A DNA stretch of 43,723 bases, from the NCBI GenBank assembly GCA_003557505.1, contig PWOH01000047.1, positions 1-43,723 on the forward strand. Direction: 5' to 3'. The translations under genes were made by a program, and so were the position numbers. Shown in pieces: positions 25,065 through 40,466 of the stretch (the first letter of the stretch is position 1; each line of letters opens with the position of its first letter). Source of the stretch: Mollicutes bacterium. GTDB lineage: Bacteria > Bacillota_I > Bacilli_A > Izemoplasmatales > Izemoplasmataceae. The notes beneath the pieces are model-generated. The model made no database searches. It saw nothing but the letters and a program-made list of their open reading frames with translations, and was not told the DNA's origin.

Positions 25065-25070
25065 AGGCAT

Positions 25071-25290
25071 AACTACAATGAAGAGGAAGAGTAATTGTGA
25101 ACGTCTTAAAGAGAGTCGGTGGGGCTGTGAACCGATAGACACACACAGTGAAGGTAGCCTTAGAGTAGGCAGGATGAATCAAGTAGTTCTGTTCGTTGGC
25201 GGCGTTAACGCACTTGAGTGCCAATACTACGAGTATTGGAATAAAGGTGGTACCGCGACTCAGTCGTCCTTGTTTACAAGGACTTTTTTT
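25071..25290 (+). ncRNA. T-box leader, valine-specific
   Basis: The T-box sequence AAAGGTGGTACCGCG (25243-25257) is canonical and its TGGT bulge would pair with a tRNA ending in ACCA. Stem I contains GTGAAG-GTA-GCC; the GTA at 25154-25156, one base after GAA, is the likely specifier, a valine codon. The leader ends in an intrinsic terminator (25266-25290), so uncharged valine tRNA should permit valS transcription. Confidence 0.93.
25266..25290 (+). terminator. T-box regulated terminator
   Basis: GTCCTTG (25266-25272) / CAAGGAC (25277-25283), TTTA loop and seven T. Confidence 0.92.
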
Positions 25291-25317: not shown

Positions 25318-27921
25318 ATGGACATGGCAAAAAAGTATGATCATAAACACGTTGAAGCCAACAAATACCAAACTTGGAAAGAAAACGGTTATTTTAAGAG
25401 TGGTGACACCTCTAAAAAACCCTACACAATTGTGATTCCACCGCCGAATGTCACAGGAAAACTCCATTTAGGACACGCCTGGGACAATACCTTACAAGAT
25501 ATCATCATTCGTCAAAAACGCATGGCTGGTTATGATGCGTTATATCTTCCGGGCATGGATCATGCCGGTATAGCAACGCAAGCTAAAGTTGATGCTTTAC
25601 TGAGAGAACGTGGTGAAGACCGTTTTTCTTTAGGGCGGGAACAGTTTTTAAAAGAGGCATGGGCCTGGAAAGAAGAATATGCTAAATTTATCCGTGAACA
25701 ATGGGCGGCATTAGGCATTAGCGTTGATTATGACAAGGAACGTTTCACCTTGGATGATGGGTGCAGTGACGCGGTTAAAACTGTCTTTTTCCGTTTGTAT
25801 GAAAAAGGCTTGATTTACCGCAAAGAACGCATTATTAACTGGGATGTCGAAGCTAAAACTGCCCTGTCAAATATTGAAGTTGAACATAAAGAAGTAGAAG
25901 GAGCCCTTTATTACTTCAAATATATGTTAGAAGATCATAGTGATTATATTTTAATCGCTACAACTCGTCCGGAAACAATCTTTGCGGATACAGCGGTTAT
26001 TGTTCATCCTGAAGATGAAGAACGTAAAAAATTCGTCGGTAAACGGGTGTTAATCCCAGGTACAAAGACAAGTGTATTGGTCATTGAAGATGATTATGTT
26101 AATCGTGAGTTTGGGACCGGTGCACTGAAGGTGACCCCGGCCCATGACCCCAATGACTTTGAAATTGGTGAACGTCATAATCTTGAAATGCCACATTGTA
26201 TGCATGAAGATGGCACGATGAATAAACTCGCACACAAATACGAAGGCATGGAACGCTTTGAGTGCCGTAGGACACTTGTGAAAGACTTGGAAAATGCTGG
26301 CCTTATGACCCATAAGGAAACACACATTCACAGTATCGGACATTCTGAACGTACTGATGTCATTGTTGAACCACGTTTATCAAAACAGTGGTTTGTTGAT
26401 ATGAAACCCCTCGCTGAAAAAGCACTAAAAGATTCCAGTGCTTCATTTGTTCCACCGCGTTTTGAAAAAATCTTCCGTCGTTGGATGGAAGATATCCAAG
26501 ATTGGTGTATTTCAAGACAACTGTGGTGGGGACACCGTATTCCTGCGTATTATAAAGGAGACGATGTTTATGTCGGAGACAATCCACCCGCCGGCTATGT
26601 CCAAGATGAAGATGTCTTAGACACTTGGTTCTCCAGTGCTTTGTGGCCATTTTCAACTTTGGGATGGCCCAACGAAACAAAAGATTTTAAGCGTTATTAT
26701 CCAGGCGATACGATGGTTACGGGCTATGATATTATTTTCTTTTGGGTGGCCCGTATGATTTTCCAAGGCTTGGAGTTCACGGGTAAAACCCCATTTAAAA
26801 ACGTCTTAATTCACGGCTTAATTCGCGATGAACAAGGCCGTAAAATGTCGAAGTCTCTGGGCAATGGCGTTGATCCAATGGACATTAAAGCACAATATGG
26901 AATCGATACTTTACGTTATTTCCTGACCACCAATAGTGCGCCTGGACAAGACCTGCGTTTTGAAATTGAAAAAGTTGAATCCAGTTGGAACTACATCAAC
27001 AAACTATGGAATATTTCGCGTTTTATGTTGATGCATATTGAAGGCATGACTGCTGAGGAGTTAACATTTGATGTGAATAATCTTGAACTTAAAGACCGTT
27101 ATATTCTCTCAAGATTAAACAGTACGATTAAAGAAGTTAACCGCAATTATGACCGGTTTGAGTTTGGTGAAGCGGCAAAAGCGTTATACAAATTCAGTTG
27201 GGATGAAGTTGCATCTTGGTATGTTGAAACATCAAAGATTGCCTTAGAATCTGACAATGGCACCAAAAATTCTACTACCAAAGCGATTATGTATCATGTT
27301 TGGGTCAACACGTTAAAGATGTTGCACCCATTTATGCCTTTTGTTACAGAAGAAATTTATCAATTACTTCCCCACAAAGAAACCAGCAGCATCATGATTG
27401 CCTCGTGGCCAACTGTAGAGGATGAACACATCGACACGCAAAGTGAAAAAGCATTTGATTCACTTAAAAACTTGATCACACGCATTAGGAACGTTAGAAA
27501 TGAATACGATGTTTCCATGAAGCAAACAATTGATATACTCATTGAGACTGATCCGAAAACACAAAAAACATTCAATGATAATCTCGATATCATCAAGCGT
27601 TTCACCAATCCACAGACCATAACAATGGATACTCAAGTGCCACACTCCAACGATAATTTGTCCTTTGTTGAAGCGGCATTTACCATCTATATCCCTCTCG
27701 GTGACTTGGTAGATTTAGAAGCTGAACTTGCCAAACAAAGAAATGAAGAAAAACGATTATACGGCGAAATCAACCGAGCGAAAGGCATGCTGAATAATGA
27801 AAAATTTGTAGCGAAAGCGCCGAAAGAAAAAGTGGCAGCGGAAAGGGAAAAACTTCAAAGCTATGAAAAACAACTCGACAATGTACAAAAGCGAATCAAA
27901 GAACTTGAAACAACCGTTTAG
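25318..27921 (+). CDS. valS: Valine-tRNA ligase
   Basis: ValRS charges valine tRNA. The 867-residue class I synthetase has HLGH at 50-53 (PPPNVTGKLHLGHAW), an editing (CP1) domain with the TTRPETIFADTAVIVHPED segment, KMSKS at 509-513, the anticodon-binding domain and a C-terminal coiled coil of about 65 residues rich in Glu, Lys and Arg. GGGAG at 25306-25310 is 7 bases before the ATG at 25318, which favours it over the ATG at 25324. The valine T-box upstream confirms the amino acid. folC overlaps its 3' end. Confidence 0.98.
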   Translation: MDMAKKYDHKHVEANKYQTWKENGYFKSGDTSKKPYTIVIPPPNVTGKLHLGHAWDNTLQDIIIRQKRMAGYDALYLPGMDHAGIATQAKVDALLRERGEDRFSLGREQFLKEAWAWKEEYAKFIREQWAALGISVDYDKERFTLDDGCSDAVKTVFFRLYEKGLIYRKERIINWDVEAKTALSNIEVEHKEVEGALYYFKYMLEDHSDYILIATTRPETIFADTAVIVHPEDEERKKFVGKRVLIPGTKTSVLVIEDDYVNREFGTGALKVTPAHDPNDFEIGERHNLEMPHCMHEDGTMNKLAHKYEGMERFECRRTLVKDLENAGLMTHKETHIHSIGHSERTDVIVEPRLSKQWFVDMKPLAEKALKDSSASFVPPRFEKIFRRWMEDIQDWCISRQLWWGHRIPAYYKGDDVYVGDNPPAGYVQDEDVLDTWFSSALWPFSTLGWPNETKDFKRYYPGDTMVTGYDIIFFWVARMIFQGLEFTGKTPFKNVLIHGLIRDEQGRKMSKSLGNGVDPMDIKAQYGIDTLRYFLTTNSAPGQDLRFEIEKVESSWNYINKLWNISRFMLMHIEGMTAEELTFDVNNLELKDRYILSRLNSTIKEVNRNYDRFEFGEAAKALYKFSWDEVASWYVETSKIALESDNGTKNSTTKAIMYHVWVNTLKMLHPFMPFVTEEIYQLLPHKETSSIMIASWPTVEDEHIDTQSEKAFDSLKNLITRIRNVRNEYDVSMKQTIDILIETDPKTQKTFNDNLDIIKRFTNPQTITMDTQVPHSNDNLSFVEAAFTIYIPLGDLVDLEAELAKQRNEEKRLYGEINRAKGMLNNEKFVAKAPKEKVAAEREKLQSYEKQLDNVQKRIKELETTV

Positions 27922-30657: not shown

Positions 30658-31554
30658 ATGGATATACTTATTAAGCACTATTTAACGCATTCAGGACGTG
30701 CCCTCGAACAGGCAAGATTTGCTTATTGGTTTGAAAAGGGTAGTAAAGAAGCGGTTATTGATGCCTTAAAATCTTATCAGAATGCTGATGGAGGTTTTGG
30801 TCATGGCTTAGAACCTGATTTTCTTAATCCCAATAGCAATCCTATTGACACTTGGACCGCTTGTAATATATTAGAAGAAATTGCGATTGATACAAACCAT
30901 GAGATGATGCAACGGTTACTTGGCTACTTATTAAGAACGCCCCATAAAGAAAATTGGCACTATTACTTTAGAATCCCATCCAACAACGATTATCCACATG
31001 CTCCGTGGTGGCATTATACAATGGATAATGCCATTGAGGGTTATAATCCGAGTGCTTCACTTTTAGGCTTTTTATTCAAACACCTTTCCAAAGAAAACGA
31101 CCAGTATGAATTGATTACCAAAGCCCTTAACAAAGCCATAGAATACTTTATTGAAAACGATGTTGAAGAAATGCATGAACTACGTTGTTTCAATGAACTT
31201 TATCGTTATACAAAGAATCGTCGTGACAATAAGGCTTTTCGCCGGAAACTTAGAGGCCAAAATTTACGTGTTTTAGCGCGTGATACTACCAAATGGTTTA
31301 CCACCTATTGTACGCGTCCATCACAGCTTTTTATCGCACCAGATGTTCCCGGTGCAAAGGAAGCATCAGCTTTAATAGATAAAGAAATTCAGTTAATGAT
31401 AAAAAATCGCAATCAAGAGGGTGTTTTTGATATCAACTGGTCATGGGAGCAATATGAAGAACATTTTCGCATTGCTAAACGTCAATGGATGGGCATCATT
31501 GCGTTTGAAACATTGAAACGAGCGCACCTATTTAACATAAATACTAAATTATGA
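30658..31554 (+). CDS. Alpha-toroid (terpenoid cyclase / prenyltransferase-like) protein of unknown function
   Basis: A 298-residue soluble protein. The sequence SYQNADGGFGHGLEPDF (about residues 40-56) is the repeat signature of the squalene-hopene cyclase / prenyltransferase alpha-toroid fold, and YGVFDINWSW-like repeats recur near the C-terminus (EGVFDINWSWEQY). There is no DxDD cyclase motif and the protein is half the size of a real cyclase, so a terpene reaction should not be assumed. TTAGGAGG lies within the preceding stop region, and the gap to the phospholipase D gene is 9 bases, indicating an operon. Possible roles such as carbohydrate or lipid binding are open. Confidence 0.75.
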   Translation: MDILIKHYLTHSGRALEQARFAYWFEKGSKEAVIDALKSYQNADGGFGHGLEPDFLNPNSNPIDTWTACNILEEIAIDTNHEMMQRLLGYLLRTPHKENWHYYFRIPSNNDYPHAPWWHYTMDNAIEGYNPSASLLGFLFKHLSKENDQYELITKALNKAIEYFIENDVEEMHELRCFNELYRYTKNRRDNKAFRRKLRGQNLRVLARDTTKWFTTYCTRPSQLFIAPDVPGAKEASALIDKEIQLMIKNRNQEGVFDINWSWEQYEEHFRIAKRQWMGIIAFETLKRAHLFNINTKL

Positions 31555-31563
31555 GGAGATACT

Positions 31564-31602
31564 ATGATCATTCATGGATTAAGGCCACTGCGCCGTCGAT
31601 AA
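31564..31602 (+). CDS. Putative 12-residue leader peptide
   Basis: A complete micro-ORF, MIIHGLRPLRRR and TAA stop, with AGGAG at 31554-31558, 5 bases before its ATG. Its stop is 2 bases before a hairpin that masks the ribosome binding site of the next gene. The Arg-Arg-Arg end fits the R/K-x-R/K pattern at which macrolide-bound ribosomes stall in several known resistance leaders. The ORF may instead be chance or a decayed gene start; no experiment is available. Confidence 0.5.
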   Translation: MIIHGLRPLRRR

Positions 31603-31604
31603 GA

Positions 31605-31639
31605 CTCTCTTTAACATCAAATAATAAAATTAAGGAGAG
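31605..31639 (+). promoter_or_regulatory. Ribosome-binding-site sequestering hairpin (putative translational attenuator)
   Basis: CTCTCTTTAA (31605-31614) pairs over ten positions, one of them G-U, with TTAAGGAGAG (31630-31639), which contains the AAGGAG site for the ATG at 31645. The loop is 15 bases. There is no T run, so control would be at translation. TTAAGG also occurs inside the leader ORF (31579-31584) and could compete for the left arm. Confidence 0.6.
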
Positions 31640-31644
31640 CACAT

Positions 31645-32295
31645 ATGAACGTTCCCAATCATCTTATAAAACAAAAGTTACAGAATGTATTTTTTATTCT
31701 CGGTAGTAACTGCGGGGGTAAATCCAGTATGGCCAAAGCCTTGGCTGAAAAGCATGACATGGTTTTATATAGCGCCGACGAACATTACTGGAATCACCGT
31801 AAACAAACAGATTCGGCTGTAGAGGTCAATATGAACCGACCGTTTCATGGCTGGGATGAATATTTTTCTCGTAATCCTCGAGATCAAGCGAAGTGGTTAC
31901 TGCGTTGTAAAGATGAGGAGATTCCCTATATTCTTTGCGATTTAATGGTACTTGCATCGTCTACTGATAAGAAAATTATTGTCGACACGCATAACATGGG
32001 AGATTTAGCGAAGGAAATTACCAATTATAATCGTGTGATTTATCTTTATGCCGATGAAGAGACTGTTCGAAATGATTTTTTTGAAAGAGAAGATAAATTG
32101 CCCCTGCTAAAAGTGATTCAAACCAAAACAACACATCCAGATAAAGCCCTTAACAATTTACTTGAAACGGTATCACTCATTGCACGAAGCGAAATTGATG
32201 AAGCATTATCATCTAATTTCAAAACCCATCAACGCACACTCAACATATCGTTCGAAGAGCGTATGACCCTTGTAGAAAAACATTTTAAGTTATAA
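31645..32295 (+). CDS. P-loop kinase-like protein of unknown substrate
   Basis: A 216-residue protein with Walker A GSNCGGKSS at residues 20-28 close to the N-terminus, then SADEHYW and a hydrophobic strand with KIIVDTH that may be Walker B. The layout resembles nucleotide/nucleoside or antibiotic kinases of the P-loop fold (adenylate, shikimate or chloramphenicol phosphotransferase type), but no substrate motif is recognised. AAGGAG at 31633-31638 is the ribosome binding site and is buried in the hairpin described at 31605-31639. The product is thus likely made only when the hairpin opens. It is the last gene of the phospholipase D - toroid cluster and ends in a strong terminator. Confidence 0.75.
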   Translation: MNVPNHLIKQKLQNVFFILGSNCGGKSSMAKALAEKHDMVLYSADEHYWNHRKQTDSAVEVNMNRPFHGWDEYFSRNPRDQAKWLLRCKDEEIPYILCDLMVLASSTDKKIIVDTHNMGDLAKEITNYNRVIYLYADEETVRNDFFEREDKLPLLKVIQTKTTHPDKALNNLLETVSLIARSEIDEALSSNFKTHQRTLNISFEERMTLVEKHFKL

Positions 32296-32326
32296 TCTAG
32301 GAGGACTTCGGTCCTCCTAGATTTTA
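32294..32326 (+). terminator. Terminator of the kinase gene
   Basis: A 13-bp perfect stem (32294-32306 / 32311-32323) with TTCG loop and T tail; the most stable hairpin in the window. Confidence 0.92.
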
Positions 32327-32369
32327 TGTTTGTAACACTTTGATTAACCGTCTTTAAGGAAGTGAAACC

Positions 32370-33416
32370 ATGAAAACCATTGAAAACCCTAAAAAGTTTG
32401 CACACGATTTATGTGATTGGTACCGTGATAATAAGCGGGATTTACCGTTTAGAAAATCAAAAGATCCCTATAAGATATTTCTCAGTGAACTGATGTTGCA
32501 ACAAACCCAAATCGCGACAATGATTCCTTATTATGAACGGTTTATCGAACGTTTTCCTACTATTAAAGCACTGGCTGAGGCCAATCAAGATGAGGTGCTC
32601 AAATATTGGGAAGGCTTAGGCTATTATTCCCGAGCACGCTATATCCATGAAAGTGCACAAATGATTATGAATACGTATGATGGGATCTTTCCTGAGGCAT
32701 TAAATGATATTGAAGCGTTAAAAGGTGTAGGTCGCTATACTTCTAGAGCGATTCATTCCATTGCTTATGATGAACCATCGGTGGCGGTTGATGGAAATGT
32801 CATGCGGGTGATGAGTCGTGTATTATTGTTTGATGAAGACATACGCAAAACTAAAAACATGCGTCTTATTGAAGATACCTTGAAAAATGTTATAGTCCAT
32901 GAAAAACCTGCCGATTTTACCCAAGCGTTAATGGAACTCGGTGCCCTCGTTTGTAAGAAAAGTCCTTTGTGTGAAGCATGCCCGTTGAAACACCATTGTT
33001 TCGCATACAAACAAAATAGACAAAATGATTACCCTGTTGTCTCAAAATTAAAGGATAAAACAACACATACGTTTAGTGTGATGATTGTTCGTAAGGGTAA
33101 CTGCTATATTTTAAATCAACGTCCACCTAAAGGATTACTTGCAAATATGTATGAGTTCCCTCAATATGAGACATCCAAAAATAACGCGCTGAAACAGCTT
33201 GTTAAGGATTATGAGTTAGTGCTTGATTCAGTCGATACACTGGGCACGATTACTCACATCTTTACCCATAAAATATGGACGATGCATGTTTATGCAGTTA
33301 ATGCGGAAAATGTACCAGACAACCAAATCTATGCATTGAATACATTCCCTCACGCTGTATCCAAGGCCCATTTAAAGATTATTGATCTGTTAAAAGAAAA
33401 AAACCTCCCTTTATAG
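32370..33416 (+). CDS. mutY: A/G-specific adenine DNA glycosylase
   Basis: MutY removes adenine mispaired with 8-oxoguanine. The 348-residue protein has the helix-hairpin-helix glycosylase core with the catalytic glutamate in SELMLQQTQ, the LKGVGRYTSRAI hairpin and the aspartate in VAVDGNVMRV. The iron-sulfur loop CKKSPLCEACPLKHHC has the C-x5-C-x2-C-x5-C spacing. The C-terminal Nudix-like domain (about 230-345) that recognises 8-oxoguanine is present. GGAAGTGA precedes the ATG. radC starts 27 bases downstream with its own ribosome binding site, so the two repair-related genes may be co-transcribed. Confidence 0.95.
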   Translation: MKTIENPKKFAHDLCDWYRDNKRDLPFRKSKDPYKIFLSELMLQQTQIATMIPYYERFIERFPTIKALAEANQDEVLKYWEGLGYYSRARYIHESAQMIMNTYDGIFPEALNDIEALKGVGRYTSRAIHSIAYDEPSVAVDGNVMRVMSRVLLFDEDIRKTKNMRLIEDTLKNVIVHEKPADFTQALMELGALVCKKSPLCEACPLKHHCFAYKQNRQNDYPVVSKLKDKTTHTFSVMIVRKGNCYILNQRPPKGLLANMYEFPQYETSKNNALKQLVKDYELVLDSVDTLGTITHIFTHKIWTMHVYAVNAENVPDNQIYALNTFPHAVSKAHLKIIDLLKEKNLPL

Positions 33417-34220: not shown

Positions 34221-34284
34221 TCGCTTAGCAGCATACCGCACAGAATGGGTCTTAAGTATAGCAACGCTATCACCCTAATGGCGA
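34221..34284 (+). ncRNA. Ribosomal protein L21 leader
   Basis: The leader folds into a long hairpin: TCGC-TTAG (34221-34228) with CTAA-TG-GCGA (34275-34284), inner GGGT / ACCC (34247-34250, 34272-34275) and ATAGC-AAC-GCTAT (34258-34270). Location before rplU and size match the L21 leader family of Firmicutes, which is thought to bind L21 for feedback control. Assignment is by position and fold, not by covariance search. Confidence 0.7.
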
Positions 34285-34313
34285 GTCTTAACAATATGAG
34301 GAGGTGCTCAAGC

Positions 34314-35033: not shown

Positions 35034-36032
35034 ATGATTAGACTTGCTAAAACAGCGGATTTGGATGCGATTGATGCCCTAAGTGTTAAGACAATTACTG
35101 CAATGCACCAACAAGGATTGCATCAATGGACAACCAATTATCCCAGAAGCCCTCATTTTAAAGATGACATTAGCCATAACCGCCTGTATATTTACGAAAC
35201 AGACAATAAAATACTTGGTGTTATGGCCCTATATGGAGAAAACGAAGAAAGTTACCGTAATCTATCCTGGATGAAACAACAATCTTTGGTCATACATCGA
35301 ATAATGGTTGATCCAGATGCCAGGGGACAAGGGATTGCCAGCGGTTTTCTTTCTTATGCGATTAACCAGTGCAAAACAGCTAATAAACACTCATTAAAAA
35401 TCGATACCCATCCATCAAATAATGCGATGAATGCCTTATTGAAAAAGCATCAGTTCCAATATATCGGCTATTTAAAAAGTATTCACCGTCTAGCGTATGA
35501 ACGTTTAATTGATTTTTCATTCATGAAAAAGGTGCTTATCTTTGGGAATGCCGGGACCGGTAAAACAACGTTAGCGAGAATGCTTGGGGACAAGTTGAAC
35601 CTCAACGTTTTACATTTGGATACTGTCTACTGGCTTAAAGATTGGCAGTCAATGGATAAGGAACTCTTTAAACAAAAGGTTCGTCGTTATTTAAAGCACC
35701 ATCCTAGGTTTGTCATGGATGGCAATTATACGAACTCTCAGACATTTGAAGACCGTATCCGTATCGCTGATACGATTATTTTACTGAAATACCCAAAACA
35801 AAGCGCTTTAAAAGGTGTTATTGAGCGTGAAAAAGAATACAAGCACCGTTATCGTAGTGATATGGCAACGGGATGTATTGAAGAACTTGATCAAGAGTTT
35901 TTGCAGTATGTCGCATTTTTTGACAAGAAAAAGAAAAAACTAGAAGCTGTGTTAAATAGCTTAAAACATCAAAAAAATATCCTGATTTTTGATTCAAGGG
36001 ATGCGTTGATGCAGTGGTTTAACAGCTTATAA
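35034..36032 (+). CDS. Fusion of a GNAT acetyltransferase and a P-loop kinase
   Basis: A single 332-residue frame with two domains. Residues 1 to about 158 are a GNAT N-acetyltransferase, with the acetyl-CoA-binding motif VDPDARGQGIASGFL and a final LKSIHRLAYER strand. Residues 164-332 are a kinase of the DNA topology modulator/FlaR or adenylate kinase-like type, with Walker A GNAGTGKTT, the LHLDTVYW segment and RFVMDGNYT. The second domain begins with Met (35523) but has no ribosome binding site before it, and there is no stop or frameshift between them. The fusion therefore appears real. AGGTGA precedes the ATG. Substrates unknown. Confidence 0.85.
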   Translation: MIRLAKTADLDAIDALSVKTITAMHQQGLHQWTTNYPRSPHFKDDISHNRLYIYETDNKILGVMALYGENEESYRNLSWMKQQSLVIHRIMVDPDARGQGIASGFLSYAINQCKTANKHSLKIDTHPSNNAMNALLKKHQFQYIGYLKSIHRLAYERLIDFSFMKKVLIFGNAGTGKTTLARMLGDKLNLNVLHLDTVYWLKDWQSMDKELFKQKVRRYLKHHPRFVMDGNYTNSQTFEDRIRIADTIILLKYPKQSALKGVIEREKEYKHRYRSDMATGCIEELDQEFLQYVAFFDKKKKKLEAVLNSLKHQKNILIFDSRDALMQWFNSL

Positions 36033-37626: not shown

Positions 37627-37652
37627 AGCCGTTGAAAGGATGTGAATCACAT

Positions 37653-39059
37653 ATGAATGAAAACATCGATGATATTGTTCGTATCATTAAGGAAGCCTCA
37701 CCCGGAACTATTCAGGATGAGTTAGAATCATATCATCCTTCTGATGTTGCAGAATGTTTTTCAATTATTAATGATGAAGACGAGATGCATTTGCTAATAA
37801 CGCTTAACCATCATCTATTAGCGGCCATTTTTGCACACCTTAAACCAAAAAAAGTTTCAAAGTTATTGTTAAAAGTTGATAAACCTAAAGCCGGTCGAAT
37901 ATTAGATGCAATGGAAAGAGACGATGCAACCGATGTTTTAAAAATGTTTAGTGCACAAACACGTAAAGCATTACTTGCAACTACCGATGATAACGTAAAA
38001 GTGGAGTTAGAGTCGCTGATTCATTATCCAGAAGAAACTGCTGGATCGATTATGACTACTGATTATATTGATATCCATAAAGATATGGATGTTAAAGATG
38101 CGATGAAAGTTTTGGTTAAAAATTCCGAATCGACGCAAGGCATACAAAGACTTTTTGTATTGGATGATAATAAGTTCTTAGAAGGCATTGTCGAACTTAA
38201 AACATTGATTCAAGCAAGAAGTCCAAGAAAAGTTGAAGATTTTATGTTTACTGATGTTATTACGGCTAAAGTCAATGATGATGTTGAAAATGTCGCTCGA
38301 CTGATGCAAAATTATGGAATATATCTTTTACCAATCGTTAACGAAAGCAATCAACTCTTAGGTGTCATCACTATGGATGACGCCGCCGACATTCTTGATA
38401 TGGAGACCGATGAGGACTATGCGCGCTTTGCGTCAATTTCCAAAGAGGATTCAATCAACAAAAATGTTTGGCGTTCAGCTTTGCATCGTTTGCCTTGGTT
38501 AACATTATTGCTGGCCGTAGGCATGATAGTCAGCGCAATAATATCAGGGTTTGAAGCAACAATTGAACAAATTACAGTTCTTGTCTTTTTTCTTCCTTTA
38601 GTTTTAGACATGTGCGGGAATACGGGGACACAATCTTTGGCGGTAACGGTCCGTGGAATTTCTCGGCAACATTATCAAGACTCTGAGTCACGTAAAAAGC
38701 ATGTTATTAAAGAAATAAAAGTTGGGGCATTAAATGGCCTAGGGATTGGCGGCTTATCATTTATCACCAGTGGTATATTTTTAATCATTGTTGATTTGTT
38801 AGGTATAATTACTTTAACTTATCCACCTTTTTTAATATCATTTAGTATTGGATTAAGTGTTGGACTTGCGTTAATTATTTCAACAGCCTTTGGCGCCATT
38901 GTCCCCTTAACATTGAATCGTTTGAATTTTGATCCTGCCGTTGCGAGTGGTCCATTTATCACAACAATGAGCGACGTGTTTGGGCTACTTATATATTTTG
39001 TTGTTGCTGGTATTATTATATTATGGTTGCCTGAGTTTATTGCTGGAATAGGAGGTTAA
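37653..39059 (+). CDS. mgtE: MgtE family magnesium transporter, first copy
   Basis: A 468-residue protein with the full MgtE layout: N domain (about 1-125), two CBS domains (about 130-255) that sense magnesium, and five membrane helices. The pore motif LDMCGNTGTQSLAVT and the last-helix motif VASGPFITTMSDVFGLL, with the selectivity aspartate, are both present. The start at 37653 has AAGGA about 12 bases upstream, slightly far. A paralogue follows after 3 bases, so both are made from one message. MgtE usually works as a homodimer; tandem copies permit two homodimers or a heterodimer. Confidence 0.95.
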   Translation: MNENIDDIVRIIKEASPGTIQDELESYHPSDVAECFSIINDEDEMHLLITLNHHLLAAIFAHLKPKKVSKLLLKVDKPKAGRILDAMERDDATDVLKMFSAQTRKALLATTDDNVKVELESLIHYPEETAGSIMTTDYIDIHKDMDVKDAMKVLVKNSESTQGIQRLFVLDDNKFLEGIVELKTLIQARSPRKVEDFMFTDVITAKVNDDVENVARLMQNYGIYLLPIVNESNQLLGVITMDDAADILDMETDEDYARFASISKEDSINKNVWRSALHRLPWLTLLLAVGMIVSAIISGFEATIEQITVLVFFLPLVLDMCGNTGTQSLAVTVRGISRQHYQDSESRKKHVIKEIKVGALNGLGIGGLSFITSGIFLIIVDLLGIITLTYPPFLISFSIGLSVGLALIISTAFGAIVPLTLNRLNFDPAVASGPFITTMSDVFGLLIYFVVAGIIILWLPEFIAGIGG

Positions 39060-39062
39060 TAT

Positions 39063-40466
39063 ATGCCTAAACTTACATTAATAAAACGAAATAAACCTAA
39101 AGAAATTGTCGCTATTACCCGTCATGAAAAACGTCAAAAAATATCTCAAAGTAAACTAAATCGTTATCACCCATACGATATTTCTGAAGCGTTGCTTGTG
39201 ATGAGTGAAACGGAACGTCAAAAAGTTTATTCTTGGCTTAATAAAGAAAAACTTGCCAAGGTTTTTGAACATATTAGCGAAGAGCGCGCTGCTGATTTTA
39301 TTCTCGAGCTGGACAAATCATTGGCCGCAGATGTATTGACATTGATGGAAATAGATGATGCAGTTGATATTTTACAACATTTAAAATTTGATGACTCAAC
39401 AGAATTTTTTGTACTCTTGGATGAAACAAAACGGAATCAAATTAGAAAACTCTCAAAATACAAACATCTTACAGCCGGGAGCGAAATGAACAGTGATTTT
39501 ATTAAACTTAATCCCGGAATGGATGTTAAGGATGCTATGAAGTTACTTGTCAGTCAAGCCAACACAATAGAAATGATTGAGACTTTATTTGTTACCGATG
39601 AAAACGATGTTTTAGTTGGGGTCGTCGACCTTAAAGACTTGATTGTTGCAAAACATCCTAAAAAAATCGAGAATATAATGGATTCTAACTTTTATGCGGT
39701 CAATGTACTTGATGGTATTCAAGAGGTCGTAAAAGATATTCAAAAATATGACACATTAGCAATGCCTGTATTAAATGAAGATAAAAAAATAGAAGGTATC
39801 ATTACCATGTATGATGCGATGGACATCATCGAAGAAACAGCCCATGATGATTATGCTAAACTTGCTGGACTTCCAGCTGAGGACGATGTGTATGATTCTG
39901 CTAAAACAAGTGCTAAAAAAAGGCTACCATGGCTTGTTTTACTACTATTTATGAATATGATTGTTTCGACAGTATTGGCTTCTTACGAAGAAACAATTGC
40001 AGCGATTGCGGTTTTAGTTTTGTTTCAGCCATTGATATTAGGAATGGCGGGCAATATAGGAACACAATCTTTAGCTGTTACGATATTAAGAATATCAAGG
40101 GAAACTTTACGGACAAAAGTCAATGTCATCAAACACATTACTAGTGAATTTTTGGTTGGCGTAATTAATGGTGTTATCTTAGGTGTATTAGCGTTTTTAA
40201 CATCATGGATTTTACTTAATATTTTACCATTAGGTCAAATTGACAGTACAATTACTCCATTTAGAGTAGCTGGCGTGGTTGGCTTAAGTGTTGTGAGTTC
40301 TCTAAGTGTCTCAGCGCTATTGGGAAGCCTTATACCTGTAATATTAAACAAACTTCGTGTTGATCCAGCAGTTGCAAGTGGTCCATTTATTACAACCATT
40401 AATGATGTTACCGCACTCATGGTATATTTCACCTTAGCCAGTGTTCTTTTACTAACTTTACTTTAA
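39063..40466 (+). CDS. mgtE: MgtE family magnesium transporter, second copy
   Basis: A 467-residue paralogue of the preceding gene with the same domains. It has a longer basic leader (about residues 1-40), the N domain, CBS pair and five helices with LGMAGNIGTQSLAVT and VASGPFITTINDVTALM. Both ion-pathway motifs are intact, so it should transport magnesium or a related divalent ion. GGAGG in the tail of the first copy precedes the ATG. The two sequences are clearly diverged, which suggests an old duplication with different regulation or ion preference rather than a recent one. Confidence 0.95.
   Translation: MPKLTLIKRNKPKEIVAITRHEKRQKISQSKLNRYHPYDISEALLVMSETERQKVYSWLNKEKLAKVFEHISEERAADFILELDKSLAADVLTLMEIDDAVDILQHLKFDDSTEFFVLLDETKRNQIRKLSKYKHLTAGSEMNSDFIKLNPGMDVKDAMKLLVSQANTIEMIETLFVTDENDVLVGVVDLKDLIVAKHPKKIENIMDSNFYAVNVLDGIQEVVKDIQKYDTLAMPVLNEDKKIEGIITMYDAMDIIEETAHDDYAKLAGLPAEDDVYDSAKTSAKKRLPWLVLLLFMNMIVSTVLASYEETIAAIAVLVLFQPLILGMAGNIGTQSLAVTILRISRETLRTKVNVIKHITSEFLVGVINGVILGVLAFLTSWILLNILPLGQIDSTITPFRVAGVVGLSVVSSLSVSALLGSLIPVILNKLRVDPAVASGPFITTINDVTALMVYFTLASVLLLTLL

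Follow-up and report, generated by a model that had tools for sequence, protein, structure and literature searches.

The closest known arrangement to the one described here is the leader of Bacillus tlrB, with those of ErmDL and HflXr also close. In Bacillus subtilis, tlrB (yxjB) encodes a 23S rRNA methyltransferase and is preceded by the leader peptide MIIQFIRYR, on which tylosin stalls the ribosome once the last Arg codon has entered the A site. A ribosome stopped at this end of the leader lies over the 5′ arm of a hairpin that would sequester the Shine-Dalgarno (SD) sequence, so that the hairpin does not form; the gene is also subject to transcription termination and NusG-dependent pausing (PMC6851288). 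ErmDL stalls the ribosome at Arg-Leu-Arg with erythromycin and telithromycin (PMC8298421), and the MefAL leader reads MTASMRLR (PMC10314930). The HflXr leader (rli80) of Listeria monocytogenes, with 14 residues and an RLR motif, is induced by lincomycin and erythromycin and works through transcription termination; the HflXr protein itself is homologous to the ribosome-splitting factor HflX (PMC6310831). The genes behind leaders with the R/K-x-R/K (+x+) motif, as found in the literature, encode rRNA methylases, efflux proteins, and HflXr, and such attenuation leaders reveal which gene a cell switches on under ribosome poisoning.

The window, i.e., the whole stretch of DNA analyzed here (43,723 nucleotides), is contig C130 of its genome (1.53 Mb, 148 contigs). 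It contains a candidate leader of this type in front of a P-loop kinase gene, a type of target that would be new, and its counterparts in relatives point to an uncharacterized kinase family in small-genome bacteria. The unit and its upstream neighbor consist of the following features.

30658-31554, + strand: upstream gene, 298 aa, no Pfam match, same direction; syntenic in genome G002, elsewhere outside the unit
31554-31558, + strand: leader SD, AGGAG, starting within the stop codon of the upstream gene
31564-31602, + strand: 12-codon leader ORF, MIIHGLRPLRRR followed by a stop, with a peptide core conserved in relatives
31591-31599, + strand: predicted +x+ arrest motif Arg10-Arg11-Arg12, matched in position in relatives (motif as in PMC6851288 and PMC8298421)
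31605-31614, + strand: 5′ arm of the stem, CTCTCTTTAA, two bases after the leader stop (predicted folding)
31630-31639, + strand: 3′ arm of the stem, TTAAGGAGAG, containing the kinase SD (predicted folding)
31632-31637, + strand: kinase SD, AAGGAG, buried within the 3′ arm
31645-32295, + strand: P-loop kinase of an uncharacterized family, 216 aa, ATG at 31645, with an intact P-loop and a confident structural model
31702-31725, + strand: Walker A motif (P-loop), GSNCGGKS
32294-32323, + strand: intrinsic-terminator-like hairpin just after the kinase, closing the unit

An earlier note on this DNA had located the micro-ORF with its AGGAG and its three terminal Arg codons, as well as the ten-pair stem that buries the AAGGAG, and those coordinates are exact to the base. 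As in +x+ translational attenuators, a short ORF with its own SD lies directly 5′ of the gene to be regulated. The window leader contains four Arg codons, the final three consecutive (codons 10 to 12, CGC CGT CGA, RRR). It resembles the tlrB leader in its short length, MII start, R-x-R end, predicted stall when the last Arg codon occupies the A site, and a hairpin that hides the downstream SD and whose 5′ arm a ribosome at the end of the leader would cover; it differs in preceding a P-loop kinase gene instead of a methyltransferase gene, in having a single SD hairpin, and in the conserved RP before the +x+ motif. The leaders of ermD (ErmDL) and mefA (MefAL) are likewise short +x+ peptides on which a stalled ribosome alters the RNA structure controlling the next gene, but that gene encodes an rRNA methyltransferase or an efflux pump, and the window leader has RRR rather than RLR and another N terminus. 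The likeness to HflXr lies in the placement of a +x+ leader before a (here putative) resistance gene other than an rRNA methylase, and the difference lies in the use of transcription termination by HflXr.

Two other readings of the leader region were considered and rejected. Under genetic code 4, the leader, which is in frame with the TGA stop of the upstream gene, would be the C-terminal tail of that gene. This was rejected because the genes of the window read through at full length in table 11 and contain 76 TGG codons, because the leader in G002 is in a frame different from that of its upstream gene, and because some other leaders have no upstream gene within reach. Attenuation by transcription termination is the mode of the tlrB second arm, HflXr, and msrD. 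It was rejected here since no intrinsic terminator separates the leader from the kinase, the sole terminator-like site in 31300-32400 being the one at 32294-32323.

The reading that we favor, with a probability of about 0.72, is that this unit attenuates translation by ribosome stalling in the manner of the macrolide (+x+) leaders, so that a drug bound in the ribosome tunnel induces the kinase. With no drug present, ribosomes would translate the 12-codon leader and leave, the 31605-31614/31630-31639 stem would form, the kinase SD would be hidden, and little kinase would be made. We infer that an exit-tunnel drug, most likely of the macrolide type, would stall the ribosome when codon 11 occupies the P site and Arg12 the A site. 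The leading edge of the stalled ribosome would then reach about position 31610 and break most of the 5′ arm, making the kinase SD accessible and allowing the kinase to be made. The kinase most likely contributes to survival of the drug, whether by phosphorylating the drug itself or through a target linked to the ribosome or to stress. Since the arrest motif and its placement match those of the macrolide leaders (tlrB, ErmDL, and HflXr), an exit-tunnel antibiotic is, by this analogy, the most likely inducer; both the class of inducer and the stall codon are predictions from the leader that can be tested directly. One point against an attenuator is that ribosomes stall at only a subset of R/K-x-R/K motifs (PMC6851288).

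The two arms of the window stem, CTCTCTTTAA and TTAAGGAGAG, form ten pairs, one of them G-U. The stem is present in the predicted minimum-energy structure (−26.3 kcal/mol, z −2.6; 2 of 200 shuffles are equally stable), and opening the kinase SD costs 7.8 kcal/mol, a value matched by 0.3% of shuffles of the intervening sequence. When a stalled ribosome is placed on the leader in the model, with its edge (P site +16) at about 31610, six of the ten stem pairs are lost, the mean unpaired probability of the kinase SD rises from 0.01 to 0.33, and its opening cost falls from 7.8 to 5.3 kcal/mol. This effect is comparatively small because four of the ten pairs lie past the modeled ribosome edge. The partial opening, which leaves the SD 33% rather than fully accessible, counts against an attenuator.

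Besides the window, +x+ leaders are found upstream of six kinase homologues, each read from the upstream DNA.

L002: MIHGLRPIRLRTVLQHR, GTG start
L003: MGYKKLRTA
L006: MFNICLYAKLRFFSFN, at L057 11868-11919 (reverse strand coordinates), before a kinase with the GTAYAGK motif
L032: MYICNYRPIKIRNNSL
L033: MFFMNCRPVKIRTSLLN
L034, sister of L032: MILANYRPIKTRNISL

The R/K-x-R/K motif is present in all seven leaders, at residues 10 to 12 in the window, L032, L033, and L034, at residues 9 to 11 in L002 and L006, and at residues 5 to 7 in L003. Five of the seven, from three families, share the core RP[ILV][KR]xR, in which residue 10 is Lys in three leaders and Arg in two and Pro at residue 8 is invariant. 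The window core, HGLRP/RPx[KR]xR, is kept in four other loci with synonymous codon changes. Across the six-codon core, L032 and L033 have no identical codons, five synonymous ones, and one nonsynonymous one; for the window and L002, the respective counts are 0, 4, and 2. These mostly synonymous changes point to selection on the leader peptide. The RP core is missing from the most diverged leaders, those of L003 (KKLR) and L006 (AKLRFFSFN), which keep the +x+ motif alone. The L006 leader may be an independent gain. By eye, the same leader (..KLRFFSFN) resembles ErmDL (..RLRFPTLNQ) past the +x+ motif (LRF...N).

Since the window leader has four Arg codons and ends in three consecutive ones, arginine limitation could be imagined to stall the ribosome at these codons and induce the kinase. 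Arginine is not conserved, however: residue 10 is Lys in three leaders, and those of L003 and L006 have a single Arg each. The kinase, for its part, shows no link to arginine metabolism by sequence, fold, or neighborhood, which makes this explanation highly improbable. The earlier note had left drug or amino acid as alternative inducers; the macrolide type is favored by the Lys or Arg at residue 10, the invariant Pro8, and the agreement of the motif with known macrolide arrest motifs, and the amino-acid branch is disfavored by the variable number of Arg codons.

The leader is not found everywhere. Upstream DNA of two close relatives in the kinase subfamily with the GTNCGGK motif, L004 and L005, contains no leader: L004 has a short 5′ region following a promoter-like TATAAT, and in L005 the kinase lies directly behind a MiaA-like gene. 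It is also missing from most of the GTAYAGK subfamily, so leader control is not essential for the kinase, a further point against the favored reading. The tree requires about four gains or losses of the leader, which would thus be a regulator that has been repeatedly kept, lost, or gained rather than a fixed part of the kinase gene. The gene neighbors of the leader-kinase unit differ between families, so that leader and kinase stay together while their context changes. Conservation in relatives had been put forward in the note as a check on the whole idea. The micro-ORF is indeed found in six other loci and the stems show compensating changes, but the number of Arg codons at its end varies, with Lys substitutions, and L004 and L005 lack the leader.

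In folded RNA, all seven leader loci have sequence at or just after the 3′ end of the leader that pairs at or next to the kinase SD. The stems themselves differ in sequence (CTCTCTTTAA/TTAAGGAGAG in the window, CTCTTTATAA/TTATAAGGAG in L032, and CTCTTTTAAAT/ATTTGAAGGAG in L033), with compensating changes between loci that can be read from the sequences. With the ribosome positioned so that the A site holds the last +x+ residue, the modeled stall cuts the SD opening cost at all seven loci, by between 2.0 and 8.4 kcal/mol. Compared with shuffles of the intervening sequence, this reduction has a combined P of 1.4e-9 for the seven loci and of 1.2e-6 after leaving out the window, as the discovery case, and L034, as the sister of L032. 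For L032, L033, and L034, this stall position lowers the opening cost from 7-9 to 0-0.2 kcal/mol, and when stall positions are scanned along the leader, the SD opens as the ribosome arrives at the +x+ motif. The L002 stem lies partly beside the SD and has a shuffle P of just 0.15, which counts against an attenuator. An SD hairpin that a motif-stalled ribosome would open is thus found in the models, partially in the window and weakly in L002. This comparison of peptide, +x+ position, and stem geometry in the seven loci lends strong support to the idea that a stall at the Arg end frees the kinase start by opening the stem. As far as sequence and modeling can address them, the device has the features of a +x+ translational attenuator.

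A quite different explanation would be that the leader does no more than couple kinase translation to the gene before it, or is an ORF present by chance, and that the stem is a generic element of RNA stability. The window leader shares an operon with the upstream gene, whose stop codon overlaps the leader SD, and stems of such strength near SDs are not rare, with a stronger SD-upstream duplex in 31 of 195 control genes. SD sequestration alone discriminates the kinases weakly (P 0.01 and 0.06). It is the co-occurrence of SD, +x+ peptide, and stem, together with its recurrence in relatives, that stands out. In 16 contexts, SD-led genes were scored for a +x+ uORF that has its own SD and ends 10 to 60 nt upstream; 7 of 16 kinases (at most 16) have one, versus 3 of approximately 193 other genes, with one of these three exceptions sitting inside the coding end of a leaderless kinase. 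By conservative counts, the enrichment has a P of 4e-7, or 4e-6 without the window. Both the combined shuffle test and this enrichment, as well as the recurrence of conserved-peptide leaders despite differing upstream regions and neighbors, speak against coupling or chance, to which we give very little credence. The arrangement of SD, leader, and stem is not due to chance.

The pattern SD-ATG-RPxKxR, run over 395 genomes in which Bacillota from outside the phylum of the window are hardly represented, gave about 40 raw hits, and frames were read where the locus was returned. Among those, the only short ORFs directly before a gene are three kinase leaders; the remaining hits that give a short ORF are not placed as leaders. 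The open-access literature yielded no description of an RPx[KR]xR leader family or of this kinase as a regulated gene.

This exclusive pairing of one leader type with one kinase would also fit a real attenuator that responds to a signal other than a macrolide-type drug, such as another ribosome-targeting antibiotic, an exit-tunnel metabolite, or translation stress, with the kinase as a stress enzyme. The Pro conserved two residues before the +x+ motif and the RPx[KR]xR core as a whole exceed what the +x+ motif needs, and drug-resistance neighbors were not found. uORFs that sense several antibiotic classes are known, e.g., Escherichia coli toiL, which controls the TopAI-YjhQ toxin-antitoxin system (PMC12121999). 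However, the macrolide leaders are closely matched in the +x+ motif, in its placement toward the leader end, and in the SD hairpin, and the most diverged leaders, L003 and L006, retain the +x+ motif but not the RP core. Such a signal is accordingly judged unlikely, and the macrolide-type attenuator remains the preferred reading.

The structural model of the kinase (pLDDT 95.7) has an NMP/shikimate-kinase-like fold; together with the GxxxxGK[ST] motif, this places it among the putative small-molecule P-loop kinases. The invariant residues in the family are G25, K26, and R148, and a putative acceptor pocket lies around D45, W70, R76, E91, and D99. No curated family covers the kinase beyond a sub-threshold match to the generic AAA_18; NCBIfam gives sub-threshold P-loop matches only, and a single-query search of PDB sequences gives none. 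Zeta toxins are P-loop UNAG kinases; the window kinase does not match Pfam Zeta_toxin, and 2 of 22 family members match it weakly (best E 7.7e-6). Chloramphenicol phosphotransferase is a P-loop antibiotic kinase that shares the small P-loop kinase fold class, and the note had mentioned it as a possible parallel. Sequence searches of Pfam, NCBIfam, and PDB do not link the window kinase to it. The best solved structures in a fold search are mostly NMP kinases and shikimate kinases, with a TM of about 0.5 and no chloramphenicol phosphotransferase among the 50 matches listed, and the parallel is unsupported.

Since a similar switch precedes homologues of the kinase in distant bacteria, it is probably an undescribed P-loop kinase that serves in resistance or in the response to antibiotics or ribosome stress. 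It could turn out to be a new drug-modifying enzyme or lead to a new ribosome-rescue pathway. A more specific proposal, possible but doubtful, is that it founds a class of P-loop resistance kinases that are switched by RPx[KR]xR leaders, phosphorylate a macrolide or another exit-tunnel drug, and are unrelated in fold to the known macrolide phosphotransferases. No neighboring resistance gene or mobile element that would support a resistance role was found near the kinase.

Kinase homologues show a patchy distribution, with 11 of 61 near relatives and 17 of 90 genomes of the order having one (E 0.001; some of these are weak P-loop matches), and are scattered through the class. They fall into two subfamilies, GTNCGGK, which includes the window kinase, and GTAYAGK. 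None were found in viral and phage collections; the plasmid collection contains one distant match (28% identity, Ruminococcus albus), and the genome contig scan gave one weak archaeal match. In genome G007 (L005 on C112 and L012 on C100), a contig end interrupts the kinase, and a C-terminal part lies on another contig. The GTAYAGK kinase copy at L018 1501-2151 contains one in-frame TGA and is probably broken.

A known RNA family at the leader or stem was rejected: at the gathering threshold, Rfam places only a T-box and an L21 leader in the window, and both lie elsewhere. The T-box leader (RF00230, 144 bits) at 25069-25274 lies directly 5′ of a valyl-tRNA synthetase-like gene (25318-27921), and a T-box is also found in the G002 kinase contig (L053 17039-17244, − strand). 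The L21 ribosomal protein leader (RF00559) at 34223-34298 is a few hundred bases 5′ of the L27 gene (34666-34950). Between the L27 and Obg genes, positions 35034-36029 encode an unusual fusion-like protein with a GNAT acetyltransferase domain followed by a P-loop/AAA segment. Farther downstream, at 37632-40466, there are two consecutive genes for MgtE-type divalent cation transporters with CBS domains, possibly a tandem duplication.
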